Below are positions 8,951 through 36,988 of a stretch of 64,000 bases of DNA, in pieces; the first letter of the stretch is position 1, and each line of letters opens with the position of its first letter. Under the pieces are notes generated by a model, which saw only the letters and a program-made list of their open reading frames with translations, did no database searches and was not told the origin of the DNA. Source of the DNA: Thalassovita gelatinovora (GTDB lineage Bacteria > Pseudomonadota > Alphaproteobacteria > Rhodobacterales > Rhodobacteraceae); NCBI RefSeq assembly GCF_001458355.1, contig NZ_CYSA01000026.1, forward strand, positions 372,001-436,000, written 5' to 3'. The position numbers and the translations under genes were made by a program.

Positions 8951-9013
8951 AAATCTGTGACGGGTTGTAGCGATCCAGTTTAACGGAGTTTTTCCGCAAA
9001 CAGCCTCCCAATA

Positions 9014-9025
9014 ATTTGATCAAAT
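9014..9025. promoter_or_regulatory. ATTTGATCAAAT palindrome, candidate operator
   Basis: A perfect 12-bp palindrome just after the permease stop and upstream of the GS-family gene, sharing the TTTGATCAAA core with 8941-8950. It is a pair suitable for cooperative repressor binding; no regulator gene is adjacent. Confidence 0.4.
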
Positions 9026-9033
9026 ATTGTCTA

Positions 9034-9840
9034 CTACCGGATCAGGTTCGGACGCAAGCGAATTTTTTGCCGCAATCCATGTGGCAAATGCCGGTTCAGG
9101 TGGCGGTTCATCAGGCCAAACAGCGTCACCACGACCAAGGTCAACAGGATAAAATAGCTCGCGAGAATCGGGTAGGGGATGAACGGATTGAAGGTCTTGT
9201 CGGCGAAATAGTTGGCGTAATACAGCGCGTCGCCTTTTTGCCGCCAGGCCGGGAAGCCGGAAAAATACACCAGAGTGGTGGCGTGAAACAGGAAAATCGC
9301 CTCATTGGTATAAGCCGGCCAAGCCAGCCTGAGCATGGTCGGCCAGGTGATCTTGCGGAATTTCTTCCAGCCCGAAAAGCCATAAGCGTCGGCGGCTTCC
9401 AGATCGCCTTTGGGCACCGAACGCAGGGCGCCATAGAAAATTTCGCCGGTATAGGCGGCGGTGTTGAAAAACAGCGTCACCAAGGCCCCCAGCCAAGCCG
9501 CGGTGAAGGGCGCGAAGACGGGGGCGACCTGTTTCAGGCTGAGAAACAGGAAATAGGCAAAGAAGAACTGAATGAACAAAGGCGAGCCGCGGAAGATGAA
9601 AATGAACCATTCCGACGGTTTGCGCAGCCACCGGTTTTCGGCGTTTTTGCCAAGCGCCAGCGCGGTGGCCAGAAAAAAACCTGCCAACAGTGCCAACGCG
9701 CCGAAATAGATATTCCAGATCATCCCCGACCCGATCAGGGTGAATTGCTGGCATAGGGTGAAATCTTCTTTCGGCAGCAGCCGCGCACCCACGCCGATGG
9801 ATCGCAGCGCGTAATCCTGAATGGTGATCCAGCAGCTCAT
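9034..9840 (-). CDS. polar amino-acid ABC transporter permease (HisM-like)
   Basis: 268 residues with about five hydrophobic membrane segments. The EAA loop that contacts the ATPase is visible (EAADAYGFSGWKKFRKITWP, mid-protein), as is the RGSPLFIQFFF motif of the His/Glu/Arg permease family. It overlaps the preceding permease gene by 4 bases, so both are translated together and form the heterodimeric channel. Substrate is probably a basic or polar amino acid or an opine-like compound; this cannot be refined from sequence. Confidence 0.9.
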   Translation of the reverse strand: MSCWITIQDYALRSIGVGARLLPKEDFTLCQQFTLIGSGMIWNIYFGALALLAGFFLATALALGKNAENRWLRKPSEWFIFIFRGSPLFIQFFFAYFLFLSLKQVAPVFAPFTAAWLGALVTLFFNTAAYTGEIFYGALRSVPKGDLEAADAYGFSGWKKFRKITWPTMLRLAWPAYTNEAIFLFHATTLVYFSGFPAWRQKGDALYYANYFADKTFNPFIPYPILASYFILLTLVVVTLFGLMNRHLNRHLPHGLRQKIRLRPNLIR

Positions 9841-10721
9841 GCGTTGGCCTTTCTCTGCTTTTCACCGCTCAGCGTCGCTTGCCCGTTGCTCAGCCTGACC
9901 ATCAGCCGTTCCAGCACGACCTCGGACAGTTTGGTAAAGGCCAGATAGAAAACCAGCAGCGCCAGGAAATACCACATGCGCCAATCACCATGCGGGTAGC
10001 TGGTGAATTTCGCGGTCTTCGCACCGCCCAGTTCGCGCGCCCAGTAGACGATGTCTTCGACGCCCAGCAGGAACAAAAGCGGCGTCGCCTTGATCAGCAC
10101 CATCCACAGGTTGGACAGGCCGGGCAGGGCAAAGACCCACATCTGTGGCACCATGATGCGCCAGAACGCCTGCCGGCGGTTCATGCCGTACGCTTCGGCG
10201 GTTTCCATCTGTGCATGCGGCACCGCCCGCATCGCACCATAAAGTACGTTGGCGGCAAAGGCCCCGAACACGATGGCAAAGGTGATCACCGCCAAGGTGA
10301 AGCCATAGACTTCGTGGACCCATTGCGCCGCGCTTGACAGCGGCATTTTCGCCGCGTCGCAGACCACGAAATCGTTGCCCTGCCGGATCGGATCGGTCCA
10401 GTCGCGACACAGCGTTTTATGTCTGGTCCATTCGATCGCCTGATCGAAGGCGATCACGAAGAACAGGAAGAAAGCAATGTCGGGGACGCCCCGGACAATC
10501 GCGATATAGGCTTTGCCGATCCAGGCGACCGGCCGCACCCGCGACCGTGCCAGCATCGCACCGACGAATCCGAACCCCAGCGACACCGGCGCGGTAATCG
10601 CCAGCAACAGCAGAACCGTGCCAAAGGACACATAGAAAGCCATGTGTTTGCCGGTGGTCAGGTAGCAAGACAGCCAGCTCAGGCCGGACAGCGTGTCGGG
10701 ATCTGCGCAATAGGAAAAAAT
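9837..10721 (-). CDS. polar amino-acid ABC transporter permease (HisQ-like), probable ATT start
   Basis: Permease with the family motif VRGVPDIAFFLFF and EAA loop ETAEAYGMNRRQAFWRIMVP. The first ATG is at 10643, but it lacks a ribosome site and the reading frame continues 26 codons upstream with family-like sequence (CADPDTLSGLSWLSCYLTTG). This stretch ends at an in-frame ATT at 10721 with GAGG 6 bases upstream, just after a stop codon. I therefore place the start at ATT (294 residues); the conservative alternative is 10643 (268 residues). An unusual insertion of about 40 residues with several cysteines precedes the core domain. Confidence 0.85.
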   Translation of the reverse strand: MFSYCADPDTLSGLSWLSCYLTTGKHMAFYVSFGTVLLLLAITAPVSLGFGFVGAMLARSRVRPVAWIGKAYIAIVRGVPDIAFFLFFVIAFDQAIEWTRHKTLCRDWTDPIRQGNDFVVCDAAKMPLSSAAQWVHEVYGFTLAVITFAIVFGAFAANVLYGAMRAVPHAQMETAEAYGMNRRQAFWRIMVPQMWVFALPGLSNLWMVLIKATPLLFLLGVEDIVYWARELGGAKTAKFTSYPHGDWRMWYFLALLVFYLAFTKLSEVVLERLMVRLSNGQATLSGEKQRKANA

Positions 10722-10776
10722 GGTGGGCCTCGCTTAGGCGGAGAGGGCGGATTTTAAGTATTTAAGGAACAGTGAA

Positions 10777-10800
10777 AGGGGGAAGACTGTGCTTCCCCCT
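10777..10800 (-). terminator. attenuating hairpin between binding-protein and permease genes
   Basis: A 9-bp stem (10777-10785 with 10792-10800) with a 6-base loop lies just past the stop of the binding-protein gene, followed on the minus strand by TTCACTG. Partial termination here would give more binding protein than permease, as is common in such operons. Confidence 0.6.
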
Positions 10801-10812
10801 GACAGCGGACGC

Positions 10813-11523
10813 CTAGAAGGTGGCGCCGATTTCCCATTTTTCGATCAGCGCGTTCAGGCTGCCGTCGTCTTTCATCGACTGAATGGCAGCATCGAACTTG
10901 GCTTTGAGTTCGCCATCGCTTTCGCGCACGCCCATACCGACGCCGCCACCGATCATTTCTTCCTTGCTCAGCAGCATCAGGTCGGCGTTTTCTTCGGCAA
11001 TCGGTGCCAGGTAGGATTTGTCGGCCAGAACCGCATCGGCTTCACCGTTGCGCACGGCGGCGATGGTTTCATCGGGGGAAGCGAATTCCACCAGAGTCGC
11101 ACCAGACGCTGCCACGAACGCGGCCTGAATGGTGCCGGTTTGCGCCGCGATTACGCCGGACAGGTCGACATCGTCCGACATCGCCAGATAGGCGGACGGA
11201 TCGGGCTGCGAATAGTTCTGGGTGAAATCGATCACCTCTTCGCGTTCGTCGGTGATCGACATGCCGGCGATGATGGTGTCGTAATTGCCCGAAACCAGAT
11301 TGGGGATGATCGAATCCCATTCGTTGGTGACCCATTCGCAGGTCAGTTCGGCGCGTTTGCACAGCTCGTCGCCCAATTCGCGTTCGAACCCGTCAACTTC
11401 ACCATTGTCGTTGATGAAGTTCCACGGGGGGTAAGCGCCTTCGGTGCCCATGCGGACGGTGTCGGCCATGGCCAAACCGGCGGTCAGCGCCAGAATGGCC
11501 GTGCTGAGGATCAGCTTTTTCAT
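10813..11523 (-). CDS. polar amino-acid ABC transporter periplasmic binding protein
   Basis: 236 residues with a cleavable signal peptide (MKKLILSTAILALTAGLAMA, cleavage near residue 20). The mature part is a family 3 solute-binding protein: GTEGAYPPWNFINDNGEVDGFERELGDELC and the hinge region GMSITDEREEVIDF are typical of Lys/Arg/Orn and histidine binding proteins. It delivers substrate to the two permeases downstream. It lies between the ATPase gene and a hairpin that may favour its expression. Confidence 0.92.
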   Translation of the reverse strand: MKKLILSTAILALTAGLAMADTVRMGTEGAYPPWNFINDNGEVDGFERELGDELCKRAELTCEWVTNEWDSIIPNLVSGNYDTIIAGMSITDEREEVIDFTQNYSQPDPSAYLAMSDDVDLSGVIAAQTGTIQAAFVAASGATLVEFASPDETIAAVRNGEADAVLADKSYLAPIAEENADLMLLSKEEMIGGGVGMGVRESDGELKAKFDAAIQSMKDDGSLNALIEKWEIGATF

Positions 11524-11574
11524 TCATGTTCTCCCAAATGATGAACTTCGGTTTATTCAGCCGGTCCGGTGCTT

Positions 11575-12351
11575 TTAGGCGTGCACCGTGGCCGACAGAA
11601 ACTGTTTGAGCCGCTCGCTGTCCGGCGTGCCGAACAACGTATCCGGCGGGCCTTCTTCTTCGACCAGACCCTGATGCAGGAACACAACATGGCTGGAAAT
11701 ATCCGATGCCATTTTCATGTCATGGGTCACGATCAGCATGGTGCGGCCTTCGGCGGCCAGATCCCGGATCACCTTGATCACTTCCTGTTCCAGTTCCGGG
11801 TCCAGCGCCGAGGTTGGTTCGTCGAACAAAAGCGCTTCGGGTTCCATGCACAGCGCCCGCGCGATCGCCGCACGCTGCTGTTGGCCGCCCGATAATTGCG
11901 CCGGAAACACATCGCATTTGTCGCCGATGCCAACCTTGTCAAGATAGCCGCGCGCCGCCTGTTCCACCTCGGCCCGGTCGCGGCCCAGCACGGTGACCGG
12001 GGCCTCCATCACGTTTTGCAGGATGGTCATATGCCCCCACAGGTTGAACTGCTGGAACACCATGCTCAGATTGGTGCGGATGCGCAGCACCTGTTTTGCA
12101 TCCGCCGGTTGCCGCGCCAGACCTTCTCCATGCCATTTCACCGGTTCGCCCTTGAACAGGATTTCACCCTGTTGGCTGTCTTCCAGCAGGTTGGCGCAGC
12201 GCAGAATGGTGGATTTACCCGACCCGGACGATCCGATCAGTGAAACCACATCCCCCTTGCGCGCGACGATATCGACACCCTTGATCACCTCAAGACTGCC
12301 ATAGGCCTTGTGCAGACCACGGATTTCAATGACTGGATCCTGCTCGGACAA
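11575..12351 (-). CDS. polar amino-acid ABC transporter ATP-binding protein
   Basis: About 258 residues. Walker A GSSGSGKST, Q-loop VFQQFNLW, signature LSGGQQQR, Walker B ALLFDEPTSALD and switch histidine VTHD are all intact, in the HisP/GlnQ subfamily. The frame is open to an ATG at 12474, but the first 41 residues are not family-like. A TTG at 12351 with AGGGG upstream gives the expected length. It is the first gene of the leftward operon running to about 2.6 kb. Confidence 0.9.
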   Translation of the reverse strand: MSEQDPVIEIRGLHKAYGSLEVIKGVDIVARKGDVVSLIGSSGSGKSTILRCANLLEDSQQGEILFKGEPVKWHGEGLARQPADAKQVLRIRTNLSMVFQQFNLWGHMTILQNVMEAPVTVLGRDRAEVEQAARGYLDKVGIGDKCDVFPAQLSGGQQQRAAIARALCMEPEALLFDEPTSALDPELEQEVIKVIRDLAAEGRTMLIVTHDMKMASDISSHVVFLHQGLVEEEGPPDTLFGTPDSERLKQFLSATVHA

Positions 12352-12521
12352 AGCCGCCCCTGTTCTTGTTAGCCCCGTTTGAAGCAAAGAATAGGGACGA
12401 AAAAAACGATCAGTGCAACTTTCAAAATGAAAAAAACGACGGAGAAACCGCCAAATTGACCTCGGGTCATCCACAAACTGTCAGAAATGCGTCAAAAATT
12501 ATCGCTGTGGTCGGGGTGCTT

Positions 12522-12962
12522 TCAGCCGGCTTTTTCCACCCGCTGCCGGGCCAGGGCGCTGTCGCGGTCATTGATGCCCAGCAAATTAGACACCATCCGC
12601 AACAATGCATCTTCGTGTTGATCGCGCACCCCGTCGGCCAGAACCACCGACCATAGCGCCTCGATCACACCGATGCGGTCGTCATAGGCGACAGCATCCT
12701 TGATTGCGCGGGTGAACCGCACGGTATCGGGTGCTTCGGCTTCCAACTGTTCGGCGCGGCCTCGAAGATCCTGCACCCCGGCCGAATCCAACCCGTATCG
12801 GGTGGCGGCAATCCGGTCGATCCGGGCGATTTCATCGGGGTCATAGCGGCCATCGGAACGGGCGACACGGACCAAAAGCGCGGTCAGCGCCAGCCGGGCG
12901 TCCGGGCCAGTCATCGGGGCGGGGGCCGGTTGCGCCAGCCGTTTCAGGAATTCTGCAAACAT
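12522..12962 (-). CDS. TerB-like (tellurite-resistance TerB family) protein, copy 1
   Basis: About 146 residues, all-helical, with the TerB pattern: LTALLVRVARSDGRYDPDEIARIDRI and, later, IEALWSVVLADG with an acidic DEx-type end (DQHEDALLRMVSNLLGI). TerB-like domains are thought to bind metal and sit at the inner membrane, but the function of these stand-alone versions is not known. The chosen start is MFAEFLKRL, which aligns with the paralogue next door; ATGs 3 and 10 codons upstream are alternatives. No other ter genes are present. Confidence 0.78.
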   Translation of the reverse strand: MFAEFLKRLAQPAPAPMTGPDARLALTALLVRVARSDGRYDPDEIARIDRIAATRYGLDSAGVQDLRGRAEQLEAEAPDTVRFTRAIKDAVAYDDRIGVIEALWSVVLADGVRDQHEDALLRMVSNLLGINDRDSALARQRVEKAG

Positions 12963-13004
12963 ACAGGCCATATAGACCCGGCACAGCCACAATCCAAGCC
13001 GGTA

Positions 13005-24602: not shown

Positions 24603-26648
24603 ATGTCCACAGATCCCCTTCTTCAACCCTATCAGCTTAAGCATCTGACGCTTCGCAACCGGATCATGACGACCAGTCACGAACCGGCCTATCCCGAGGA
24701 CGGGATGCCCAAGGAACGCTATGCTGCCTATCACGCGGAACGGGCCAAAGCGGGGGTGGCGCTGGCGATGACGGCCGGGTCCGCTGCGGTTTCCAAGGAC
24801 AGCCCGCCGGTGTTCAACAACATCCTGGCCTACAAGGACGAGGTGGTGCCGTGGATCCGAAACCTGACGGATGCGTGCCATGACCATGGCTGCGCGGTGA
24901 TGATCCAGCTGACCCATCTTGGCCGCCGCACCGGCTGGGCCAAGGGCGATTGGCTGCCGTCAGTGTCGTCGTCGAAACATCGTGAACCGGCACACCGTAT
25001 GTTTCCCAAACTGGCCGAAGATTGGGACATCGAGCGGATCATCAGCGATTTTGCCGATGCCACCGAACGGATGCGGGCGGGTGGAATGGATGGGGTGGAA
25101 TTGCAGGTTTATGGCCACCTTCTCGATCAGTTCTGGTCGCCGCTGACCAACGATCTGGACGGCCCGTATGGCGGTCAGACGCTTGCAAGCCGGATGCAGC
25201 TGCTGAACGACGTGTTGGCGGGCATTCGCAACCGCGTTGGCGACGATTTCATCATCGGCCTGCGCTATACAGCAGACGAAGATCAAGTCGGCGGCATTAC
25301 CCCGCAGGACGGCATCGAGATGTCCAAGCTTCTGGCCGAAAGCGGCAAGGTCGATTTTCTCAACGTGGTACGCGGGCGGATCCATACCGATCCGGCAATG
25401 ACCGATCTCATTCCGGTGCAGGGTATGAAAAACGCGCCGCACTTGGATTTCGCGGGCGCGGTGAAGAAAGCCACCGGCATGCCGACCTTCCACGCCGCGA
25501 AAATCCCCGATGTGGCCACCGCCCGGCACGCCGTCGCCGCCGGGTTGCTGGATATGGTGGGGATGACCCGGGCCCATATGGCCGACCCGCATATCGTCAG
25601 GAAAATCATCGAAGGGCGCGAAGGTGACATCCGCCCCTGCGTCGGGGCCACGTTCTGTCTGGACCGGATTTATGCGGCGGGCGATGCCTTGTGCATTCAC
25701 AACGCCGCAACCGGGCGTGAATTGTCGATGCCGCATGACATCGCCGCCGCCGAGACCCGTAATAAAGTGGTGATCGTCGGGGCCGGCCCTGCCGGTCTGG
25801 AAGCGGCCCGCGTTGCCGCTGAGCGTGGTCATGCTGTCACCGTGTTCGAAGCCCAGCCCGATCCGGGCGGTCAGATCCGCTTGACGGCCAGAAACGACCG
25901 CCGCCGCGACATGATTTCGATCATCGACTGGCGGATGGCGCAATGCGCCGCCCGCGATGTGGAATTCCGTTTCAACAGCTGGGCCGAGGCTGCGGATGTT
26001 ACCGCGCTCGACCCGGATGTCGTGATCGTGGCCACCGGCGGTTTACCCAATACCGAACTGTACGAATCCGGCAAGCAACAGGACCTGGTTGTCACCGCGT
26101 GGGATCTCATCGCGGGGGATGTAAAACCGGGACAAAACGTTCTGATCTATGACGAAAGCGGCGATCACCCCGGCCTGATGGCCGCCGAAGTTGCGGCCAA
26201 GGCAGGCGCCAGCGTCGAGGTGATGACCCCCGACCGGATGTTCGCCCCCGACATCATGGCGATGAACCTTGTGCCCTATATGCGTGAATTGCAGGACCGG
26301 GACGTGACCTTTACGGTCGCGCGCCGACTTTTGGACGTGACCCGAGACGGCAATCAGCTCAGAGCAAAAATCGGCACGGATTACAGCGCTTTCACCAGTG
26401 AAAAGACCTTTGATCAGGTGGTCGTGAATTATGGCACCATGCCGCTGGACGATCTGTATTTCGATCTCAAGCCGGACTCTTCCAACGGTGGCGCGGTCGA
26501 TTACGATGCGTTGATCGCAGGTGAACGCCAACAGATCCTGCGCAACGCAGAAGGCCGGTTTCAACTGTTCCGCATTGGCGATGCGGTCAGCGCCCGAAAT
26601 ACCCATGCCGCGATTTATGACGCGTTGCGATTGATGAAAGACATCTAG
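24603..26648 (+). CDS. FMN/FAD/4Fe-4S demethylase, N-methylproline or dimethylglycine-type (OYE/TMADH family)
   Basis: 681 residues. The N-terminal TIM barrel of the Old Yellow Enzyme family (residues 1-360) binds FMN. Cysteines in CVGATFCLDRIYAAGDALC suggest a 4Fe-4S cluster, although spacing differs from trimethylamine dehydrogenase. The C-terminal half has two Rossmann motifs, starting KVVIVGAGPAGLEAARVAAERG. The roseobacter relatives I recall are annotated as N-methylproline (stachydrine) demethylases. Substrate is therefore probably a methylated amine, not proven. A TetR gene is divergent upstream. Confidence 0.87.
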   Translation: MSTDPLLQPYQLKHLTLRNRIMTTSHEPAYPEDGMPKERYAAYHAERAKAGVALAMTAGSAAVSKDSPPVFNNILAYKDEVVPWIRNLTDACHDHGCAVMIQLTHLGRRTGWAKGDWLPSVSSSKHREPAHRMFPKLAEDWDIERIISDFADATERMRAGGMDGVELQVYGHLLDQFWSPLTNDLDGPYGGQTLASRMQLLNDVLAGIRNRVGDDFIIGLRYTADEDQVGGITPQDGIEMSKLLAESGKVDFLNVVRGRIHTDPAMTDLIPVQGMKNAPHLDFAGAVKKATGMPTFHAAKIPDVATARHAVAAGLLDMVGMTRAHMADPHIVRKIIEGREGDIRPCVGATFCLDRIYAAGDALCIHNAATGRELSMPHDIAAAETRNKVVIVGAGPAGLEAARVAAERGHAVTVFEAQPDPGGQIRLTARNDRRRDMISIIDWRMAQCAARDVEFRFNSWAEAADVTALDPDVVIVATGGLPNTELYESGKQQDLVVTAWDLIAGDVKPGQNVLIYDESGDHPGLMAAEVAAKAGASVEVMTPDRMFAPDIMAMNLVPYMRELQDRDVTFTVARRLLDVTRDGNQLRAKIGTDYSAFTSEKTFDQVVVNYGTMPLDDLYFDLKPDSSNGGAVDYDALIAGERQQILRNAEGRFQLFRIGDAVSARNTHAAIYDALRLMKDI

Positions 26649-26857: not shown

Positions 26858-27610
26858 ATGGCACGAAACGACAATACCTATCCAAGTCTTGTTCTGTCGG
26901 CTTTGAGTATCAACCTTGCCGTCCTCGTCGCTTTTGTTTTTCTTACAGTCCTGCAATTTGACCAATTGCGATCCGGGTTGGAGCAGGAACGTTTGAGAGT
27001 CGTGGCGGACCGTGCCGCGGAGCCTTTGGCATCAGCCGCGATGATTGGTTTGAACTTATCATCCGTGCGCAATCTTGATGCCGTGCTGGAACGTGCGCGG
27101 CAGGCAGATCAAGCGATCAATTCCCTGTATGTCATCGATCAGAACGGCACTATCGTTGTCAGCACGGCCGGCGATCACCCCGGCACCGTCGGCCCTGAGA
27201 CCCTGCGCCGCCTTGGTGACGGCGCGGCGACTGCCAGCTACAAGGAGAATGGCGATTATCGCTACCTCGTAACCTTCAAGCGCCTCAGCGGCGATGTCGC
27301 GGGCGGTTTGTTGATGGAATATTCCGGTGCGGCGGCAAACACATCCGTCTGGGCCATGACCGGGCGGCTTGCCACGGCAGCCTTGATTTTCTGCTTGATC
27401 AGCGGCGCATTCTTAGCCGTGTTGATCCAAAGGGTTTTGCGCGGCGAGAGCCGGATCGACCAAGTGTTTTTGTCCGGATATGCAACCGGGTTGCGCGGGC
27501 TTTGGCGAGGCGAAGACGGAATGCCTGTTGACCCGGATGGGGACGACATCGCACGCGCCATGCGCGAAGCCGACGAAAGGTATATGGTTGCGAAGGGTGT
27601 GGAATCTTGA
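26858..27610 (+). CDS. two-TM sensor-like membrane protein without output domain
   Basis: 250 residues. TM1 (about 11-33) and TM2 (about 167-190) enclose a 130-residue periplasmic region that looks like a single Cache/PAS-like sensor (NSLYVIDQNGTIVVSTAGDHPG is the typical strand pattern). The cytoplasmic tail of about 60 residues resembles a partial HAMP linker but carries no kinase, cyclase or chemotaxis domain. A TTGACA box at 26822-26827 with a weak -10 at 26846 would place transcription start close to the ATG. It overlaps the next gene by 4 bases (TTGA), so the two are translated together. Function unknown. Confidence 0.8.
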   Translation: MARNDNTYPSLVLSALSINLAVLVAFVFLTVLQFDQLRSGLEQERLRVVADRAAEPLASAAMIGLNLSSVRNLDAVLERARQADQAINSLYVIDQNGTIVVSTAGDHPGTVGPETLRRLGDGAATASYKENGDYRYLVTFKRLSGDVAGGLLMEYSGAAANTSVWAMTGRLATAALIFCLISGAFLAVLIQRVLRGESRIDQVFLSGYATGLRGLWRGEDGMPVDPDGDDIARAMREADERYMVAKGVES

Positions 27611-29502
27611 CGACACCCGGCATGCCCACCGCGAATGGTCTTCGTCTGCGCGTGACGATGGCCTTGGTGGTGATCATTGCCGTGACCGTGGCGGCGTTTT
27701 CGGTGGTGACGTTCCGCACCTTCGACGAGGCGATCGTGCCGGAGCTTCGGCAGCGAACAAAGATACTCGGGACGATGCTTCGGGACGATTTGCAGCGCAC
27801 GCTCGAACTGGGAATTCCAATCGAAGCGGTTGCCGGTTTCGGTGAAAAGGCCGCTGAAATCGTCGATGATTTCCCAGAGGTGCAGCGGGTTCGGATCGTG
27901 TCGTCTACTGGTGCGGTCCTTGTCGATATAAATCACGAAGAGGCAAATGCGCCTTTGAAAACCGATCCGGGCTTGCAGGTATGGAGCCATGATTTCCCGG
28001 TGCTTGTCGGCAATAAGATCGCAGCAGAAATCGAACTGACCGGCAACCCGCGCCTGATCGAAACACGCCTGCTGCGGGCCTTGATGGATATTGCCGTGAT
28101 CGCATTTGCGATCATTCTGCTTGGGGTCGAAATGATCCTTGCTCTCGCGGCGCGCACTATCTGGCTGCCGCGTGAAACGGTCACCCGATTGCTGGAGGAT
28201 CAGCGCCATGGCCGTTTTGACCGCGTGATCGAGGTGCCGCCCAACGGTCCATTGGCGCAGATGGCAGAGCGATTGAACGACCGCGCGATACATCTTGCGC
28301 AAAACGGCACCGCGCCGACGCGACTTCAGGTATCGTTGCCGGTGAGCGCGCGCCTGCCGGTGTTCCTGCTTGCGCTTGGCACCGAGACGACGGCTTCGTT
28401 TTTGCCGATCCTGGCCGGAAGCGTCGAACGCCCGGAGGCAATCACCGCACCCGTTGCCGCTGCGTTGCCCCTGGTCTTCTATCTTCTGAGCGCAGCGATT
28501 TTGGGACCGATTGCAGGACGTTTGGGGCGCAGGATCGGTCCGAAGCGAGCGTTTTCCTGGTCGGTCCTTCCGATCCTGGTGGGGCTTGTGGTGATGGCCT
28601 TTTCCGCGAACCTGCTGGGGATTGCGCTTGGCCGGATGGCCGTTGGTGGCGGCTACACCCTGGCTGTTTCTGCCTGTTCAGCCTTCATGCTACGCGCCGG
28701 AGGGCGCACGATTGCGACCCAGATGCAGGCGTCTCTCAACACGGCGCTGTTCGGCGGGGTTCTGGCCGGGTCGGTTATCGGGGGCATCGCCGCCTTTGAA
28801 GCGGGGTACGTGGTCGCGATCCTGCTTGGGGCCGGGGCGGTTCTGGCGGCTTATCCGGTGGCGCGCTGGGGCCTGTCCGGTCCGGCCGGACAGGTGCGCA
28901 AGCTTCAGCCTGTCGCGATAGACGATACCGCAAACCGCCGGGCGTTCGTGATGTTCGTCGCGTTTCTGGCAGTACCGGCAAGCGCAAGCACCGCGATGGT
29001 GATCTGGTATCTCGTGCCGCTGGTCCTGACGGCAGAGGGGTTCGACGCGGCCATGATCGCCCGGATCGTGATGCTGTATTATCTCGCTGCAATATTGATT
29101 GCTCCGCTTGCCAGCCATGTCTGCGCGGCGGCAAGGATCAGTGACCGGCTTGCCGCGATGGGCGGCGCGGGAGTGGCCGCGGGCACCCTGATCGGTGCCG
29201 GTGCCGACACACTGTCTCCGATCGCTATGGTCGCTTTGCTGGGCGTGGGACACGCGGTGCTGCGGGCACCGCTTTACGCTCTGGTGGTGCGGGCCATCGG
29301 ACAGCACACGGAATGGATCGACCATTTTCGCGTGGCTGAAAGACTTGGCGCGGTCGCGGCCTTCGCCACGGCAACGCTGTTTTTGGGGCGGGACAATCCT
29401 GCGGCCATCTATGCCGTTCTGGGAACACTATCATTGGCAGGGCTTGTCCTTATCGTCATACTTACCCCTACCACGACCAAACAAAGGGTATCACGAACAT
29501 GA
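27607..29502 (+). CDS. sensor-like module fused to MFS transporter
   Basis: 631 residues. TM1 (about 14-36), a 120-residue periplasmic Cache-like domain (with VQRVRIVSSTGAVLVDINHE), TM2 (about 161-186) and a HAMP-like cytoplasmic segment (187-238) are followed by a major facilitator domain from about 245 with around twelve helices. The MFS loop 2-3 motif is visible (GPIAGRLGRRIGPKRAF). The start is a TTG overlapping the upstream stop; ATG 27622 is an alternative. The architecture suggests transport gated by, or coupled to, periplasmic ligand binding. That is inference; I know of no characterised member. Confidence 0.82.
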   Translation: MTTPGMPTANGLRLRVTMALVVIIAVTVAAFSVVTFRTFDEAIVPELRQRTKILGTMLRDDLQRTLELGIPIEAVAGFGEKAAEIVDDFPEVQRVRIVSSTGAVLVDINHEEANAPLKTDPGLQVWSHDFPVLVGNKIAAEIELTGNPRLIETRLLRALMDIAVIAFAIILLGVEMILALAARTIWLPRETVTRLLEDQRHGRFDRVIEVPPNGPLAQMAERLNDRAIHLAQNGTAPTRLQVSLPVSARLPVFLLALGTETTASFLPILAGSVERPEAITAPVAAALPLVFYLLSAAILGPIAGRLGRRIGPKRAFSWSVLPILVGLVVMAFSANLLGIALGRMAVGGGYTLAVSACSAFMLRAGGRTIATQMQASLNTALFGGVLAGSVIGGIAAFEAGYVVAILLGAGAVLAAYPVARWGLSGPAGQVRKLQPVAIDDTANRRAFVMFVAFLAVPASASTAMVIWYLVPLVLTAEGFDAAMIARIVMLYYLAAILIAPLASHVCAAARISDRLAAMGGAGVAAGTLIGAGADTLSPIAMVALLGVGHAVLRAPLYALVVRAIGQHTEWIDHFRVAERLGAVAAFATATLFLGRDNPAAIYAVLGTLSLAGLVLIVILTPTTTKQRVSRT

Positions 29503-30497
29503 GAACCCCGAGATTGCTTCCCCTGATCCTGCCCCTTTTCATGGCGGTGTCCTGTCCTGCCCAAGCAAGTGAACAGACCGTTTTCTTCGCCACATGGCGC
29601 GGCTGCGAAGAAGCCTGTCAGGGGGCTAAAGACGCCCTTGCCAGCGCCGCGCCAGATGTCGAAATCCTGCAATTTGATGCCGGGGGCGACCGGAGCCGCT
29701 TGCAGGGGGTGGTCGAGGAAGCCCGGTCAAGGGATGTGGACCTGATTATTTCATGGGGCACCAGCGTCACCCTTGCAACCGCAGGAACGCTTGCCGATCT
29801 GGCAGACCCGTCCTTCAATCACGATATCCCGCAGGTTTTCATGATCGTTGCCGATCCGGTCGGGTCCGGGATTATTGAAAGCCTTGATGCGACGGGACGC
29901 GACAACCTTACCGGCACATATAACCGTGTGCCGGAACGCGTGACCGTTGAAACGCTCAGGCGGGTTTTGCCGAAAATGGACACATTGGGGCTGCTTTATA
30001 ATCCGAACGAAAAGAATTCGGCGCTCAAACGGGATGAACTGGCAGACCTGCTGCCCCGGTTGGGGGTGACTTTGATCGACCGCGCCTTCGCGCTGACCGA
30101 CGACGGGACGCCGACCGTCGAGGATATCGGCGATCAGATCAGACGGATCAAAGAGGCGGGTGCCGACGCGATATATGTCGGCAGTTCGTCTTTTCTTCGA
30201 TCCAATGCCGCAATTTTCGGGGCGGCAGCCAAGAGCGCGAAGCTTCCGGTGATCAGCCCATATGAGGAGATGGTGCAAAACGGCCATGCGCTTATTTCGG
30301 TCGCCGCGCGGTATTACGATGTAGGGCAGCTCGCCGGGCAACGGGCCGCGGCCATTCTGGTCGACGGTGCCCGCCCGGGATCGCTACCGGTTGCGAAAAT
30401 GGAAAATTTTGCGCTGACAATCAATCTGAGTTTCGCGCGCGAAATCGACGTTTGGCCCCCAGTTGACCTGCTCGACTTTGCCGATGTGGTCAAATGA
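29499..30497 (+). CDS. periplasmic binding protein, ABC_sub_bind (PF04392) type
   Basis: 332 residues with a signal peptide (cleavage after about residue 23, AQA-SEQ). The two-lobed fold resembles family PF04392 (TrpX-like): IISWGTSVTLATAGTLAD, FMIVADPVGSGIIESL and GLLYNPNEKNSALKRDEL are typical. No ABC permease or ATPase is nearby; instead it overlaps the sensor-MFS gene by 4 bases (ATGA). It may present a ligand to the Cache-like domains of the two upstream membrane proteins. That role is inferred from the operon. Confidence 0.87.
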   Translation: MRTPRLLPLILPLFMAVSCPAQASEQTVFFATWRGCEEACQGAKDALASAAPDVEILQFDAGGDRSRLQGVVEEARSRDVDLIISWGTSVTLATAGTLADLADPSFNHDIPQVFMIVADPVGSGIIESLDATGRDNLTGTYNRVPERVTVETLRRVLPKMDTLGLLYNPNEKNSALKRDELADLLPRLGVTLIDRAFALTDDGTPTVEDIGDQIRRIKEAGADAIYVGSSSFLRSNAAIFGAAAKSAKLPVISPYEEMVQNGHALISVAARYYDVGQLAGQRAAAILVDGARPGSLPVAKMENFALTINLSFAREIDVWPPVDLLDFADVVK

Positions 30498-30675: not shown

Positions 30676-31296
30676 TTACCGAGGGGAATTTTCGGTATCT
30701 GACGAAGCGCATTCAGACGAACCAGACAGAAGCCGTGATCCAGCAATTTGGCCCGCCCAGACCAAATCGAACGCCTTGGCAAGTGGAACGCTTTCGTCAT
30801 TTTCCCAAAGATGAATCGCCCGTGACATACAGCCGACCGCGTTGTCGGCAAGCGCCCCGGTGATGTGCGGGTCGTTCGCACGGTCGCACAGGCAAGCTAC
30901 CAGTTCATCGCGTTCCGCGATAAGGATGCGATCAAGCACACCGCTTGCTTTGTCATTCGAGTGAACGACCTTGCGCACCATGCGAAGGGTTGCTTCATCT
31001 TCGGCCAGTACCGCCATATGTCTGTCAAGAAACCGCTTCAGATCGACAGCGAGCGATGAAGTCCCCTCGCGCAGCGCCGCCTTGTCTGCTTCTTGGAACC
31101 CGGGCGGCACCCCGATGGCGGCCGCTTCCTTGTTGGGAAAATAGTTGAAAAAGGTGCGTGTGCTGATCCCTGCCGCCGCTGCGATCGCTTCGGTCGTTGT
31201 GTTTTCTAATCCCTGGGCGAGCGCCAAATTCAAAGTGGTTTTTTGGATATCGCGCGCAGTTTGCTGTCGCCGTCGCGTTCGTAACGGAAGTGTCAT
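30676..31296 (-). CDS. TetR-family repressor of the RND operon
   Basis: 206 residues. Helix-turn-helix at about residues 28-50 (TTTEAIAAAAGISTRTFFNYFPNKEAAA), followed by a helical ligand domain. It is divergent from the adaptor gene of the efflux operon with only 77 bases between starts, containing a spaced repeat. The likely job is repression of the pump, as with AcrR or NalC. Start chosen at ATG 31296; the frame is open to 31359 and no strong ribosome site distinguishes the two. Confidence 0.87.
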   Translation of the reverse strand: MTLPLRTRRRQQTARDIQKTTLNLALAQGLENTTTEAIAAAAGISTRTFFNYFPNKEAAAIGVPPGFQEADKAALREGTSSLAVDLKRFLDRHMAVLAEDEATLRMVRKVVHSNDKASGVLDRILIAERDELVACLCDRANDPHITGALADNAVGCMSRAIHLWENDESVPLAKAFDLVWAGQIAGSRLLSGSSECASSDTENSPR

Positions 31297-31305
31297 CGAA
31301 TAAAC

Positions 31306-31339
31306 TTTGCATACTGTGCAGTGTTTGCGTATTGAGCAG
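31306..31339. promoter_or_regulatory. candidate TetR operator, two 16-bp direct repeats
   Basis: TTTGCATACTGTGCAG (31306-31321) and TTTGCGTATTGAGCAG (31324-31339) match at 13 of 16 bases and are 18 bp apart, in the gap between the TetR and adaptor genes. Confidence 0.5.
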
Positions 31340-31373
31340 AATATAGGTGGGATAGTCAAGGGGCTTGAAGGCG

Positions 31374-32537
31374 ATGAAATCCGGCGTTTGGACGATTATT
31401 GGTGCCGTTGCTGCGTTTGCTGCATTCGCGTGTTCAGCGAACGCCCAAGGCGCACCTACGGGGCCGATTGAAGTAGGTGTCATTGAAACCATGATGCAGG
31501 ATGTGCCGCGGGTCGTGACCTTGCCGGGGCGTGCCGTCGCGTTTCAAGAAGTGGAAGTACGGCCCCGCGTGGGGGGCGTGATCGAAGAGATCCTTTACAC
31601 CCCGGGCCAGTCGCTTGCCGTTGGTGACCCGTTGTTCCGGATCGACGATTCGTCCTACCTCGCGGCTGTCGCTTCGGCGCGGGCGAATATGGCGACCGCG
31701 CAAGCCAATCTGCCGGTGGCGCAATCAGCGTCTGATCGTGCCGAAGAACTGTCTGGCCGTGGCTATACCGAAGCCGAAGTGGAATCCGCGCGGGCCAGTC
31801 TGGCTGAGGCCAAGGCGACAGTGGAATCCGTGAAGGCCGCGTTAGAATATGCGCAGACCGAACTGTCCTGGACGACAGTGACAAGCCCGATTTCGGGGCG
31901 CGCCGATGTTGCGACGGTTTCGGTCGGCGATCTGGTAACTGCCGGGCAGAGTGATGAGTTGACCACCATCGTTCGGGCGGACCCGATCTATGTCGACATG
32001 ATGGAAACCAGCGCCCGAATTCTGTCCAACCGCAAGGGTATCGACGAAGGCACCCTGACCCGGAACGACAACATTCAGGCGACCTTGCTTTTGGAAAACG
32101 GAGATGTGTATCGCGGCACCGGGCAGCTGGTGACGCCGGGGACCAGCGTATCGACAACCACCGGAACTGTGACTGTCCGGTTCCAGTTCGACAATCCCAA
32201 TCACATCGTCATTCCCGGCATGTTCCTGCGCGGCGAGATCATGATCGGCACCATGCGGGCCTATCTTGTACCGCAACGCGCTGCCACGCGCGGAAATTCC
32301 GGTCAGCTTACCGCATTCGTCGTTGGCGAAGACGGCACCGCGCAATCGGTGACCCTGACGGATGATGGCAGCTATCAGAATTCCTGGATCGTGCGGGAAG
32401 GGCTGAATGACGGCGACAAGCTGATCATCGACGGGCTGTCGTCCCTCAGGGCCGGGCAAGCGGTTATCCCGGTGGCCGCGACGATCGACGAAAACGGTAT
32501 CGCTCGCGACGCCACCACCAGCAGCGCAGAGAACTGA
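31374..32537 (+). CDS. RND efflux periplasmic adaptor (AcrA/MexA type)
   Basis: 387 residues. An export signal (MKSGVWTIIGAVAAFAAFAC, cleavage near SANA) precedes the barrel-sandwich start VVTLPGRAVAFQEVEVRPRVGG. A helical hairpin (ANMATAQANLPVAQSASDRAEEL) and the returning lipoyl half (SPISGRADVATVSVGDLV) follow. It links the inner-membrane pump to the outer-membrane channel. ATG 31374 is preferred over TTG 31365. The pump gene begins 4 bases after the stop. Confidence 0.93.
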   Translation: MKSGVWTIIGAVAAFAAFACSANAQGAPTGPIEVGVIETMMQDVPRVVTLPGRAVAFQEVEVRPRVGGVIEEILYTPGQSLAVGDPLFRIDDSSYLAAVASARANMATAQANLPVAQSASDRAEELSGRGYTEAEVESARASLAEAKATVESVKAALEYAQTELSWTTVTSPISGRADVATVSVGDLVTAGQSDELTTIVRADPIYVDMMETSARILSNRKGIDEGTLTRNDNIQATLLLENGDVYRGTGQLVTPGTSVSTTTGTVTVRFQFDNPNHIVIPGMFLRGEIMIGTMRAYLVPQRAATRGNSGQLTAFVVGEDGTAQSVTLTDDGSYQNSWIVREGLNDGDKLIIDGLSSLRAGQAVIPVAATIDENGIARDATTSSAEN

Positions 32538-32540
32538 GCC

Positions 32541-35500
32541 ATGGCATCGTTCTTCATTCACCGCCCCGTTTTCGCTTGGGTTCTTGCTATTGCTGTCATG
32601 CTGACCGGCGCGTTCAGCGTGATGAACCTTCCTATTTCACAGTATCCGGACATTGCACCGACAACGGTTCGGATCAGCGCGTCCTATACCGGGGCGTCTG
32701 CCGAAACCGTCGAAAATTCAGTCACTGCGGTCATTGAGGATGGTCTGACCGGGTTGGACGGGATGACCTATATGACGTCATCCTCAACGGAAGGCGCCGC
32801 CAGCGTATCGCTGATTTTCGATGACACGATTGACCCCGATATGGCGCAGGTCCAGGTGCAGAACAAGCTTCAGCTTGTGGAATCGCAGCTTCCCGACAGT
32901 GTCACCACTGCCGGTGTATCTGTCACCCGCTCGACCACCTCCATTCTGATGGTCGGAGCCTTGGTCAGCGAAGACGGCAGCTATTCTTCTTTGCAGCTCG
33001 GCGACATTTTGAGCAGCACCATTCTGGATCCGGTGCAGCGCACGGATGGTGTTGGATCGGTCAACATCTTTGGCACGGAATATGCGATGCGCATCTGGCT
33101 GAACCCGGAGCGCCTGTTCCAGTATCAGTTGACCCCGAACGACGTGACCTCGGCGGTGACCCAGCAGAATACCAATGTCACGGTTGGCAGTCTGGGCGAT
33201 CAACCCGTCACCAAGGGGCAGCAGTTTACCGTTTCCTTGTCCGCGCAGTCCCAGCTTGAGTCGGTTGTGGATTTCCAGAACATCCTGCTGAAAACGAACA
33301 CCGATGGGTCGGCGGTTTATCTTGCCGACGTGGCGACGGTCGAACTGGCAGAAGAAGACTATGGCAGCTTCAGCCGCTTTAATAGTCATCCGGCAGCGGG
33401 TTTTGGCGTCAATCTGTCCACTGGGGCCAACGCGGTGGACACTGCCGAAGCGGTGCGCGAGGTGATCAGCGACCTGTCGTCGGCCCTGCCCGCTGGCGTG
33501 GCGGTCGAATACCCCTATGACACATCGCCCTTCGTCGAAGAGTCGATCGAGCAGGTCTATCACACGCTGATCGAAGCCGTGGTTTTGGTGTTTCTGGTCA
33601 TTCTGCTGTTCCTGCAAAGCTGGCGGGCGACGATCATTCCAACCATTGCCGTGCCGGTGGTCTTGCTGGGGACGTTTGGGGTGCTGTCAGCCTTTGGGAT
33701 GTCGATCAACACCCTGTCGATGTTTGCGCTGGTGCTGGCCATTGGTCTGCTGGTGGATGACGCCATCGTGGTGGTCGAGAATGTCGAGCGCGTGATGGAA
33801 GAAGAAGGGCTTGATGCGGTGGCCGCGACCGAAAAAAGCATGGGGGAGATATCTACCGCGCTGATCGGGATCGTCATGGTCCTGTCGGCAGTGTTTCTGC
33901 CCATGGCGTTCATGTCCGGGTCGACCGGGGTGATTTACAAACAATTTTCGGTCACGATCATTTCGGCCATGGTACTGTCGCTGTTCGTGGCGCTGATCCT
34001 GACCCCGGCCATGTGTGCGCAGCTTCTCAAGCAGACCCACGACAAGCAACCCATCGCACCGCTGCGGTGGTTCAATACCGGGCTGGACCGTTTGACCGCA
34101 GGCTATGGCGGCATGATCGGACGGCTGGCCCTGCGCCCCTTGCGTATGGTGCTGGTGTTGGGTCTTGTCGGTGCCGGGGCCTGGTGGGTCTATGACCGTT
34201 TGCCGACATCGTTCCTGCCGACCGAAGATCAGGGCATGTTGATGGCGATCGTCGAATTGCCGCAAGGATCGACCGTGCAGCAGACCGAACATATGGTGTC
34301 GGTGATCGAGGATCATTTCCTGACCAACGAAGCCGATATGGTCGAGACCGTCTTTGCCACCGTCGGGTTCAGTTTTGGCGGAACCGGCCAGAACAACGCG
34401 ATGATGTTCATCCGGTTGAAAGATTACGATGATCGACCCGGCCAGGATACCGCCGATTTGATGAACCGGGTAAACCGCACGTTCTTTCAGTCCCGACTGG
34501 GCAGCGTGTTCGTTCTGCAACCGCCTGCGATCCCGGGGTTGGGGACGTCATCGGGCTTTACGATGTATCTTGTCGATCAGTCCGGGGCGGGACAGGAAGC
34601 GTTGAGCGCCGCGGCCGATCAGTTGGTGGCGCGCGGCAATGAGGATGGTCGGGTGACAAACCTGCGTGGCAATGACGATGCCACCGAACCGGCGTTGAAA
34701 TTGCAGATCGATCAGCAGAAAGCCGAAGCCCTTGGGGTATCCGTTTCGGATGTGAATTCGATGCTTTCCACTGTTTTTTCAGGATCGTATGTCAACGATT
34801 TTCCGCTTGGCAATGATCTGCGCGGGGTGATCGTGCAAGGCGGCGCGACGTGGCGGATGCAGCCAGAGGACGTTGATCAATGGTATGCACGCAATTCCGG
34901 TTCAGAAATGGTCCCGCTGTCAGCCTTTATCACACGGGAATGGGAAACGATTACGCCTAAGCTCGCCCGATATGGCGGAACCCGTGCGCTGGAGATTTCC
35001 GGCGCAGCCGCAGCGGGCCTGAGTTCCGGGGACGCAATGACAGCGATGGAGGAACTGACAGCCGGTCTTGACGGGTCCTTTGCGCCCGCCTGGACCGGGT
35101 TGAGTTATCAAGAAAGGCTGTCGGGCAATCAGGAAAGCATTCTTTACACCTTGTCGGCGCTGGTGGTCTTTCTCTGTCTAGCTGCCTTGTACGAAAGCTG
35201 GACCGTTCCCTTCGCGGTGATGCTGTCGGTTCCGGTCGGTATCCTGGGGGCGCTGACGGCGACCTGGTATTTCGGCCAGTCTAATGACGTGTATTTCAAG
35301 GTCGGATTGTTGACCACGATCGGTCTGGCCGCAAGAAACGCGATCTTGATCGTCGAATTCGCTGAATCCCAGCGTTCGGGTGGCATGGCCCTGTTGCAGG
35401 CGACGGTGTCGGCGGCGCAGCAACGGCTGCGTCCGATCCTGATGACCTCGCTGGCCTTTGGCTTCGGCGTCTTGCCGTTGGCCTTGGCCTCCGGAGCGGG

Positions 35501-35648
35501 TGCGAATGCACAAAAATCCATCGGCACCGGGATGTTGGGCGGGATCATCTTTTCTGCGGTGATCGGGATCGTTATGGTCCCGGTGTTCTATGTCGCCGTC
35601 ATCAAAGCCACGGGATTTTTCCGTGCCCGTGTGGAGACTACCCAGTGA
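32541..35648 (+). CDS. RND multidrug efflux pump (AcrB/MexB type, HAE1)
   Basis: 1035 residues, the normal length. It starts MASFFIHRPVFAWVLAIAVM, with the first helix, and has the proton-relay aspartate pair in GLLVDDAIVVVENVERVM (about residue 405). The second half has the repeated GLLTTIGLAARNAILIVEFAE motif. Twelve membrane helices and two large periplasmic loops are visible. The middle gene of the tripartite operon; the drug range cannot be predicted. Confidence 0.95.
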   Translation: MASFFIHRPVFAWVLAIAVMLTGAFSVMNLPISQYPDIAPTTVRISASYTGASAETVENSVTAVIEDGLTGLDGMTYMTSSSTEGAASVSLIFDDTIDPDMAQVQVQNKLQLVESQLPDSVTTAGVSVTRSTTSILMVGALVSEDGSYSSLQLGDILSSTILDPVQRTDGVGSVNIFGTEYAMRIWLNPERLFQYQLTPNDVTSAVTQQNTNVTVGSLGDQPVTKGQQFTVSLSAQSQLESVVDFQNILLKTNTDGSAVYLADVATVELAEEDYGSFSRFNSHPAAGFGVNLSTGANAVDTAEAVREVISDLSSALPAGVAVEYPYDTSPFVEESIEQVYHTLIEAVVLVFLVILLFLQSWRATIIPTIAVPVVLLGTFGVLSAFGMSINTLSMFALVLAIGLLVDDAIVVVENVERVMEEEGLDAVAATEKSMGEISTALIGIVMVLSAVFLPMAFMSGSTGVIYKQFSVTIISAMVLSLFVALILTPAMCAQLLKQTHDKQPIAPLRWFNTGLDRLTAGYGGMIGRLALRPLRMVLVLGLVGAGAWWVYDRLPTSFLPTEDQGMLMAIVELPQGSTVQQTEHMVSVIEDHFLTNEADMVETVFATVGFSFGGTGQNNAMMFIRLKDYDDRPGQDTADLMNRVNRTFFQSRLGSVFVLQPPAIPGLGTSSGFTMYLVDQSGAGQEALSAAADQLVARGNEDGRVTNLRGNDDATEPALKLQIDQQKAEALGVSVSDVNSMLSTVFSGSYVNDFPLGNDLRGVIVQGGATWRMQPEDVDQWYARNSGSEMVPLSAFITREWETITPKLARYGGTRALEISGAAAAGLSSGDAMTAMEELTAGLDGSFAPAWTGLSYQERLSGNQESILYTLSALVVFLCLAALYESWTVPFAVMLSVPVGILGALTATWYFGQSNDVYFKVGLLTTIGLAARNAILIVEFAESQRSGGMALLQATVSAAQQRLRPILMTSLAFGFGVLPLALASGAGANAQKSIGTGMLGGIIFSAVIGIVMVPVFYVAVIKATGFFRARVETTQ

Positions 35649-36988
35649 AACCCCAATTCCTTTTGATCGGCCTGCTTGTCGCCGGTTGTGCCGTCGGCCC
35701 TGACTACCAGCGTCCCGAAATCGCGATGCAGACCCGCTTTGTCGGCGGCAATGCAGAGGCCGTTGGAGCCCTCGCTTCTGAAACCTGGTGGCAGAGCTAT
35801 AACGATAGGATGCTCAGTCAGTTGGTAACGCGCGGGCTGGCGCAGAACCTTGATGTGATGTCGGCCACCGAAGCGATCCGGCAGGCGCAGGCCGAATTGC
35901 GGGCAACCGGCGTCAACGCGGCGCTGGACGGGGGCCTGTCGGGTTCGGTCAACCGATCCGGCGGAGACGGGTTAAGCCCCACCACGACCCATTCCGCCGA
36001 ATTGGGGGCGTCTTTTGTCGTCGATCTGTTCGGTGGTATCCGACGGGCGCGCGAAGGGGCCGCAGCGTCGCTGACTGCGGCGCGTGCCGATGCCGAAACC
36101 ACCCGGCTTGCCTGGTTGGCGGAACTGCTCTCATCTTATGCCGATGCGCGCTATTATCAGGAAGTGTTGGCGCTGACGCGTGACACCATCAATGCGCGGA
36201 AAGAAACCGTCGAAATTACCCGCAGCCAGTATGAAGCCGGCGCGGCGACGGAATACGAAGTCGCCGAGGCGCAGGCTTTGCTGTCCACGGCGCGCGCCGC
36301 TTTGCCCCAATATGCGGCGCTGTTTGACGCGAATGTTTATGCCATCGCAACATTGCTGAACGAACCGGCCGGCCCGATCATGACCCAGATGCAAAAAGGC
36401 GCGGCGCAGTTGCCCACGCCGCGCGGGCCAAAAAGCGGCGTTCCGGCGGATCTGTTGCGCAATCGCCCCGATCTGCGCAGCGCAGAAGCCGACCTGGCGG
36501 CTGCCGTGGCCAATGTTGGTGTTGCCGAAGCCGCGCTTTACCCGTCGCTGTCGCTGTCCGGCACGGTTGGGCGCACCGATGGTGTGGACGCCTGGAGCTT
36601 CGGACCGCAACTGTCGTTCCCGGTGTTCAACCAAGCGCAACTCAGAGCGAGCCGTGACGCCCAAGTGTCGGTTGCGAAACAGTCCGAAATCGCTTGGCGG
36701 GCCTCCGTCCTGGGGGCCGTGGAGGATGTGCAGGTGGCGCAGTCCAACCTGGCACGGTATCGTCAGCGCGCGGCACTGTTGCGAACTGCGGCGAACGATT
36801 ATGAACATGCGTTGACCCTCGCCCAGGAAAATTATCGAAATGGCGCGATCACGCTGCTGGCGCTGCTTGAAACCGACAGGAACGCAGCCTCGGCACGGAT
36901 CGCAGCGGCCTCTGCTGTCAATGATGCGGCACAAGCCTGGGCCACATTGAAGATCGCCACGGGCGCCGGAGCGGCGGTGACACGATAA
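35645..36988 (+). CDS. outer-membrane efflux channel lipoprotein (OprM/NodT family)
   Basis: 447 residues. A lipoprotein signal with lipobox LVAGC (cysteine at residue 15) is followed by VGPDYQRPE, the hallmark of OprM/CusC channels. Two outer-membrane efflux repeats are visible (LVTRGLAQNLDVMSATEAIRQAQ and DLLRNRPDLRSAEADLAAAVANVG). The start is a GTG overlapping the pump stop by 4 bases (GTGA). It completes the adaptor-pump-channel set. Confidence 0.94.
   Translation: MKPQFLLIGLLVAGCAVGPDYQRPEIAMQTRFVGGNAEAVGALASETWWQSYNDRMLSQLVTRGLAQNLDVMSATEAIRQAQAELRATGVNAALDGGLSGSVNRSGGDGLSPTTTHSAELGASFVVDLFGGIRRAREGAAASLTAARADAETTRLAWLAELLSSYADARYYQEVLALTRDTINARKETVEITRSQYEAGAATEYEVAEAQALLSTARAALPQYAALFDANVYAIATLLNEPAGPIMTQMQKGAAQLPTPRGPKSGVPADLLRNRPDLRSAEADLAAAVANVGVAEAALYPSLSLSGTVGRTDGVDAWSFGPQLSFPVFNQAQLRASRDAQVSVAKQSEIAWRASVLGAVEDVQVAQSNLARYRQRAALLRTAANDYEHALTLAQENYRNGAITLLALLETDRNAASARIAAASAVNDAAQAWATLKIATGAGAAVTR

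Follow-up and report, generated by a model that had tools for sequence, protein, structure and literature searches.

The stretch of DNA considered here, 64,000 nucleotides from Thalassovita gelatinovora (contig NZ_CYSA01000026.1, positions 372,001 to 436,000; hereafter 'the window'), contains three overlapping genes on the forward strand that encode, in order, a small membrane sensor, a fusion of a related sensor to a major facilitator superfamily (MFS) domain, and a secreted solute-binding protein of Pfam family PF04392. The three-gene set is a real unit, conserved across so many loci that chance grouping is excluded. We hold, with moderate confidence, that the three proteins form one membrane complex in which an MFS transporter is controlled by the binding protein, by way of paired Cache domains and a HAMP-like linker. 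We infer the pairing, docking and gating as follows. The gene 3 protein would capture a small ligand in the periplasm. Two related Cache sensors, one the gene 1 protein and the other the N-terminal part of gene 2, would pair to create a docking site for the loaded gene 3 protein. Docking would move the transmembrane (TM) helices, and the HAMP-like linker would relay the shift directly into the first MFS helix, turning transport on or off.

Gene 1 (26858..27610; 250 amino acids (aa)) starts with ATG, gene 2 (27607..29502; 631 aa) with a TTG inside TTGA, and gene 3 (29499..30497; 332 aa) with an ATG inside ATGA. By the coordinates of the open reading frames (ORFs), genes 1 and 2, and genes 2 and 3, overlap by 4 bases, just as a preliminary description of the locus had it. 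That description also proposed to look for the three genes together in other genomes, and it made its reading depend on most MFS homologues keeping both the N-terminal module and the neighbours; in the surveys that follow, most do keep both.

The first survey used gene 2 as the query in 295 genomes of the family and found it in seven of them, the window's own counted. The closest other genome of the genus sampled (G076) gave no gene 2 match, and neither did an initial genome scan with gene 2 alone, a result that is little informative. Eight further regions were gathered, seven (L011-L017) from six other genomes of the family and the eighth (L018) from a Vibrio plasmid. The order gene 1-gene 2-gene 3 holds in all but two of them: L016 begins at a contig end, and in L017 a single ORF covers genes 1 and 2. 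A gene 3 profile built from these eight loci was then the query for 84,980 species genomes, and the best 80 of its 116 relatives were examined; five of the 80 (L028, L035, L046, L076 and L082) are, by their contigs, seed loci of the profile themselves. In 79 of these 80 core loci (74 of 75 without the seeds), gene 3 adjoins gene 2 or, at the minimum, the MFS part of gene 2, counting L029 and L041, where a contig end leaves the MFS part only, and L070, where gene 2 is spread over several frames. Gene 1 is visible in 73 of the 80. It is separate in 54 of them, 51 of these assigned by script and three (L031, L084 and the frame-broken L070) by eye, and forms one gene with gene 2 in the other 19; in six further loci it is cut by a contig end. 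Two of these loci are odd in other ways. L070, from Aliamphritea, has both genes 1 and 2 split over several frames and VgrG matches on two ORFs, and L084 has one gene 3 between two sensor-MFS genes (7927-12999). In most core loci, the MFS domain is the sole sensor output that we recognised.

A third survey approached the set from the other side, with the MFS domain, stripped of its sensor, as the query in 398 and 385 genomes. Matches at E<=1e-20 occurred in 14 and 36 genomes, at 49 distinct places of which the window is one. A gene 3-type protein (profile E 7e-10 or better) lies within about 3 kb of 41 of the 43 matches with E<1e-30, and the other two are cut by contig ends; these 43 include the window, and other places among them may coincide with loci found by the gene 3 profile. 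Near the weaker matches, such a protein was found in one case of six. The MFS gene carries an N-terminal extension in 38 of the 41 loci first inspected (the exceptions are L117, L118 and L135); among the 38, L141 has no sensor profile match and several others have weak ones. It might be supposed that the three proteins are co-regulated and nothing more, serving uptake sensing and a detoxifying pump, for example, with no complex between them. Adjacency that is nearly obligate, even in different classes, and the fact that genes 1 and 2 have fused repeatedly argue against this, and we consider it very improbable.

The histories of the three genes run in parallel. Their pairwise distances correlate at 0.85-0.90 over 70 sets, the window included, where the maximum of 500 permutations is 0.10, and in three pairs of loci from different classes (L062/L089, L022/L024 and L027/L032) all three genes are close. 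From the correlation and these close pairs together, the three genes appear to travel jointly. On a tree of the MFS domains, built by a quick method and supported by the Shimodaira-Hasegawa-like approximate likelihood ratio test (SH-aLRT) only, the fused or split state of genes 1 and 2 changes five times, one change being the contig-cut L039, so that about four are real; linkage to type VI secretion system (T6SS) genes likewise changes five times. The window clusters with one Frigidibacter and two Celeribacter sequences on a long stem.

Gene 1 is, by its AlphaFold2 model, a small sensor of the form TM helix, single Cache domain, TM helix, short cytoplasmic helix. The model (predicted local distance difference test (pLDDT) 87.9, predicted template-modelling score (pTM) 0.69; alignment of 70 sequences, window included) runs from a long helix (residues 7-62) through a Cache-type sheet to a second long helix (157-216) and the short one; the periplasmic Cache-type region, composed of the strands and helices that these two enclose, spans approximately residues 63-156 (27044..27325). 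In the PDB, Foldseek matches gene 1 to single-Cache/PAS sensors, WalK, KinD and CitA among them; 25 matches reach E<=0.001, with TM-scores by query length that are low (0.26-0.60). Pfam gives the window's gene 1 a sub-threshold sCache_4 match (E=0.049) and nothing else, and dCache_1 matches, weak ones, appear in 17 of 70 gene 1 homologues at E<=0.1 (best E 8e-5). No output domain was recognised in gene 1. The N-terminal sensor of gene 2 (27607..28047) is modelled along similar lines, with a long helix at residues 9-67 and a Cache-type sheet at 92-146. Its first 248 residues draw no Pfam match, and a profile of the region also picks up some gene 1 ORFs. Both proteins are thus predicted to hold a periplasmic Cache/PAS fold between two TM helices, as single Cache sensors do. 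The preliminary description had taken gene 1 for two membrane helices around a Cache/PAS-like region with no output domain, and the start of gene 2 for a sensor module; model layout and Foldseek matches agree with the former, and the fold, together with the sensor matches of gene 1, supports the latter in spite of Pfam's silence.

Between TM2 and the MFS domain of gene 2 lies the HAMP-like linker, at approximately residues 185-232 (28159..28302). In the AlphaFold2 model of gene 2 (pLDDT 88.4, pTM 0.86; alignment of 73 sequences, window included) it has a helix-connector-helix layout, with helices at 148-200 and 217-230. P188 is kept in 69 and G202 in 68 of the 73 gene 2 proteins, and these may be the AS1 proline and the connector glycine of the HAMP motif after TM2. 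Layout and residues fit a HAMP-type linker, within the bounds of a monomer model, which cannot display a parallel dimer. The remainder of gene 2 is the complete MFS domain of the preliminary description, with 12 modelled helices over residues 245-619 (28339..29463) and an MFS_1 match at residues 253-566 (E=2.2e-11), a match that recurs in 73 of 73 homologues. Profile and 12-helix fold place the protein in the superfamily, as a putative transporter. The best Foldseek matches of the domain in the PDB are MdfA, VMAT2 and NorA, and since it most resembles H+-coupled antiporters of this sort, export is slightly more likely than uptake. E260 in TM1 is kept in 66 of 73 proteins, R343 in TM4 in 67, and R575, E578 and R579 in all 73; presumably these residues have functional roles in proton-coupled transport.

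Gene 3 was described as a secreted PF04392-type binding protein, and so it proves: it matches PF04392 at E=4.4e-33, with 115 bits against a cut-off of 25.9, no other protein of the genome matches PF04392 at E<=0.001, and an export signal was identified by eye. Relatives with solved structures include 6hni, 3lkv and 3lft. The subfamily carries the motif WRGCEEAC (residues 33-40; 29595..29618), in which the two cysteines of a Cys-x3-Cys pair, C36 and C40, are kept in 80 of 81 aligned rows, the remaining row having a gap there. In family and in overall alignment, gene 3 resembles TrpX, CD0873 and VC_1101. Tyrosine, phenylalanine and tryptophan are bound by CD0873, VC_1101 and SP1069, according to PMC6816091, and TrpX and CD0873, unlike gene 3, are described as parts of uptake systems. 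At the positions compared, gene 3 differs from them. E263 of CD0873 aligns with Y255 of gene 3 (77 of 81 rows), given a residue offset of 21 deduced from the named residues, and the GxSD stretch of CD0873-type proteins is GxNR in gene 3, with R143 present in 81 of 81. The ligand of gene 3 probably differs, then, from that of TrpX, CD0873 and VC_1101. If the replaced aspartate contacts the ligand, the change from GxSD to GxNR and the invariance of R143 make an acidic ligand more likely than a plain amino acid.

The company that the set keeps varies. A BLAST search of the 10 kb flanks of the 80 core loci placed T6SS-type genes near 27; the firm number is 23, because L085, L093, L096 and L097 hold nothing more of this kind than a VgrG-type gene approximately 4 kb upstream. 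Pfam confirms VgrG, TssA, VipA and VipB in L082, VgrG and TssA in L018, and the VgrG-type gene in L097. Among Rhodobacterales (L082, L088, L091 and L095) the set lies between VgrG/PAAR and TssA, and in twelve loci of Vibrio, Photobacterium and Marinomonas it lies just before VgrG. The window's own set was considered as a T6SS component and rejected as such, there being no VipB in its genome. Neighbours in the 80 loci were named by eye from crude ORF clusters, namely those of the 60 largest that occur in at least four loci. By this measure the commonest neighbours of the 53 loci without T6SS genes are a LysR-like regulator (11), an ATP-binding cassette (ABC)-ATPase-like ORF (10) and a DctM-like ORF (7), and no constant extra partner emerged from among them. 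Over all 80 loci, the ABC-ATPase-like cluster occurs in 12, at a median distance of about 5 kb, and the DctM-like ORF in the flanks of seven. No dedicated enzyme that might indicate the cargo was found among these clusters in the core branch, and queries with ATP-grasp and GCS2 ligases gave no match in the 80 core loci.

The same queries did match divergent branches. Twenty-eight wider regions were chosen from the MFS-only matches, not at random; five are generic-MFS regions, and some are near-duplicates from a single genus. Seven of the 28 have an ATP-grasp ligase and four (plus L103 of Aureimonas) a GCS2 ligase, together with an MFS protein that has a long N-terminal extension. In L151, L152, L153, L154, L160, L161 and L163, and on plasmids L101 and L104, the ATP-grasp gene directly precedes the extended MFS gene and a gene 3-type gene; the call rests on a match to the C-terminal domain of D-Ala-D-Ala ligase in L101, and on BLAST likeness or annotation elsewhere. 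In L146, L147, L148 and L162, and on plasmid L103, a GCS2-type ligase adjoins the extended MFS gene, accompanied by a gene 3-type protein and a SpoIIE phosphatase. On plasmids of Vibrio tubiashii and V. crassostreae, divergent relatives belong to T6SS clusters that contain an ATP-grasp gene and encode a PF04392 protein, a second protein that has a weak SBP_bac_3 match, and an MFS protein, which in V. tubiashii shows two sensor-like stretches. An ATP-grasp neighbour suggests that a dipeptide-like product may be exported. We put forward a larger proposal tentatively, as possible and somewhat short of an even bet: that these sets represent a new transporter family in which a binding protein gates an MFS antiporter allosterically, through hetero-paired Cache domains and a HAMP-type linker, with part of the family built into T6SS clusters and its divergent branches paired with peptide-bond ligases of the ATP-grasp and GCS2 kinds, whose product would be exported on demand. 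A gene 3 relative in Rhizobium (profile E=2e-17) overlaps a gene for a dCache-HAMP-adenylate cyclase, which fits the idea that gene 3-like proteins can feed Cache-HAMP receptors.

Several observations weigh against the gating reading. Gene 2 is on the opposite strand in L033, and in L075 (Marinomonas gallaica) gene 3 is present without gene 2, the sole exception among the 80; the homologue there (9959-10978) comes after what appears by eye to be a glycine-betaine-type ABC operon. The correlation of distances can also come from simple co-inheritance. The Pfam HAMP profile matches one of the 73 gene 2 proteins, at E=0.079, and so, of the HAMP-like linker in the preliminary description, the helix-connector-helix layout and the conserved P188 and G202 stand and the profile support does not. 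The uptake carriers PfHT1, GLUT1, PepT and a folate transporter are within the 50 best Foldseek matches of the MFS domain, which weakens the lean toward export. The window's own MFS domain has S247 where 68 of 73 proteins have D, S358 where 69 have Q, and, at a less conserved position, R308 where 34 have D; from these departures and the long stem of its four-member clade, the window's copy of gene 2 may have drifted. Finally, L158 and L165 have MFS relatives with no sensor module beside a PF04392 protein, so that the two can pair without a sensor, and divergent relatives adjoin SpoIIE phosphatases, plus hybrid kinases in these same two loci, which permits a purely signalling role.

The sensor-less pairs bear on a different reading, in which gene 3 passes its ligand to the MFS protein directly, or receives it from there, on the pattern of the TRAP and TTT transporters discussed below, the Cache domains being a docking frame and no more; the set would then form a third class of secondary transporter that depends on a binding protein. 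In its favour, sensor-less MFS genes adjoin PF04392 genes in L158 and L165, and in L042, a Rhizobiaceae metagenome-assembled genome (MAG), MFS and PF04392-type protein form one ORF of 946 aa (1-2841) with an internal signal-peptide-like stretch. The layout of a small and a large membrane protein, repeatedly fused, also recalls the Q/M fusions of tripartite ATP-independent periplasmic (TRAP) transporters, as PMC5812351 presents them. There are points on the other side. L158 and L165 sit in signalling gene groups, and L042 lies at the start of a contig, where the single ORF may reflect either a natural fusion or the loss of a stop. To judge from the N-terminal extension in 38 of 41 loci, nearly all relatives have the Cache module, which exceeds what a docking frame would require, and in structure the MFS domain comes closest to H+ antiporters, uptake carriers in the top 50 notwithstanding. 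We think direct delivery unlikely.

Five of the 80 core loci (L077, L085, L093, L096 and L097) have SpoIIE-like genes, as do 12 of the 28 wider regions, and Pfam confirms five of these 17 (L077, L097, L158, L164 and L165). At L158 (4687-8492) and L165 (7596-9961) the sensor-less MFS and PF04392 genes stand beside a response regulator-SpoIIE gene (Pfam) and, by reading of the ORFs, an alpha/beta hydrolase and a hybrid kinase. A second module stands next to the triad in L077 (3097-7063), L093 (10884-14697), L155 (10356-15296) and L157 (514-5439): a gene 1- or gene 2-like sensor with a multi-helix region (by eye; no Pfam match above cut-off in these four), then a SpoIIE-type gene. Type III or flagellar export genes (FlhB/YscU, Bac_export_1 and FliP; YscJ/FliF) lie beside the triad in L150 (8353-11181) and L077 (19575-20357). 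UhpC is an MFS protein that serves as a sensor, works with the kinase UhpB and has no known fused Cache module. On that pattern the MFS domain of gene 2 might be a transceptor, which would chiefly sense, and signal to SpoIIE phosphatases or kinases, so controlling traits such as secretion. The SpoIIE counts favour this, as do the hybrid kinases, the histidine kinase and HD-domain response regulator upstream of the Vibrio set L018, and the proximity of 27 loci to T6SS genes and of L150 and L077 to export genes. Set against it, 75 of the 80 core loci lack a SpoIIE match in their flanks, and near the window, too, none was recognised. Neither gene 1 nor gene 2 has a known cytoplasmic output domain. 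The MFS residues that we associate with proton-coupled transport are, moreover, mostly kept. A chiefly sensory role for the MFS domain seems to us rather unlikely. The sensor-less pairs of L158 and L165 and the signalling neighbours of the divergent branches point to variants of the docking-and-gating reading.

How does the set compare with known systems? TRAP transporters (TC 2.A.56) and tripartite tricarboxylate transporters (TTT; 2.A.80) likewise combine a periplasmic binding protein with a small and a large membrane protein and no ATPase, and TRAP membrane parts are sometimes fused. Their binding proteins are of the DctP and TctC types, whereas that of the triad belongs to PF04392, and the triad's membrane parts are an MFS protein and Cache sensors rather than DctQM or TctAB. 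Pfam scans of genes 1 and 2 revealed none of these TRAP and TTT families (for the gene 1 homologues, among 25 of the 30 families listed), and membership was rejected, the membrane proteins being of other families. The docking proposed for gene 3 resembles that of binding proteins on Cache/PAS sensor kinases, such as LuxP on LuxQ, although those sensors end in a kinase and the triad's in a putative transporter. BctC probably docks on the periplasmic sensor domain of BctE (PMC9602780). The antiporters MdfA, NorA and VMAT2, of the drug:H+ antiporter 1 (DHA1) type, share with gene 2 the MFS fold, the acidic residue of TM1 and the arginine of TM4; gene 2 departs from them at the motif C proline, a position where 64 of 73 proteins have Thr or Ser. 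No Cache module or binding protein is known in these antiporters. In PMC9602780 and PMC5812351, the transporters said to work with binding proteins belong to the ABC, TRAP and TTT families. A survey of Cache domains finds them in signal transduction proteins, and its main text contains neither 'transporter' nor 'MFS' (PMC4822843). No description of the three-gene set was found in the open-access literature, subscription papers lying outside the search. All three of the readings that we find most probable couple a binding protein with an MFS protein.

No ABC permease or ATPase was recognised near the triad on reading the window's ORFs from 20 to 38 kb, profile scans being confined to the triad and the gene at 24603-26648. 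An ABC importer that had lost its permease was considered and rejected, pairing with the MFS gene being near-obligate. The gene at 24603-26648 encodes a flavoprotein of the Old-yellow-enzyme type, whose best NCBIfam match is mycofactocin OYE 2 (442 against a cut-off of 793 bits). Just downstream of the triad, at 30676-36988, a TetR-type regulator gene diverges, by our reading, from a three-gene resistance-nodulation-division (RND) efflux operon.

If the gene 3 protein were to exchange its ligand with the MFS protein directly, a third class of binding-protein-dependent secondary transporter would be added to those known, and this would be less of a departure from known kinds. If the gating reading is true, a bacterial sensor input would drive a secondary transporter directly, without gene regulation, and the genes for an 'MFS transporter' and an 'ABC substrate-binding protein' that are found inside some T6SS clusters would acquire a candidate role.

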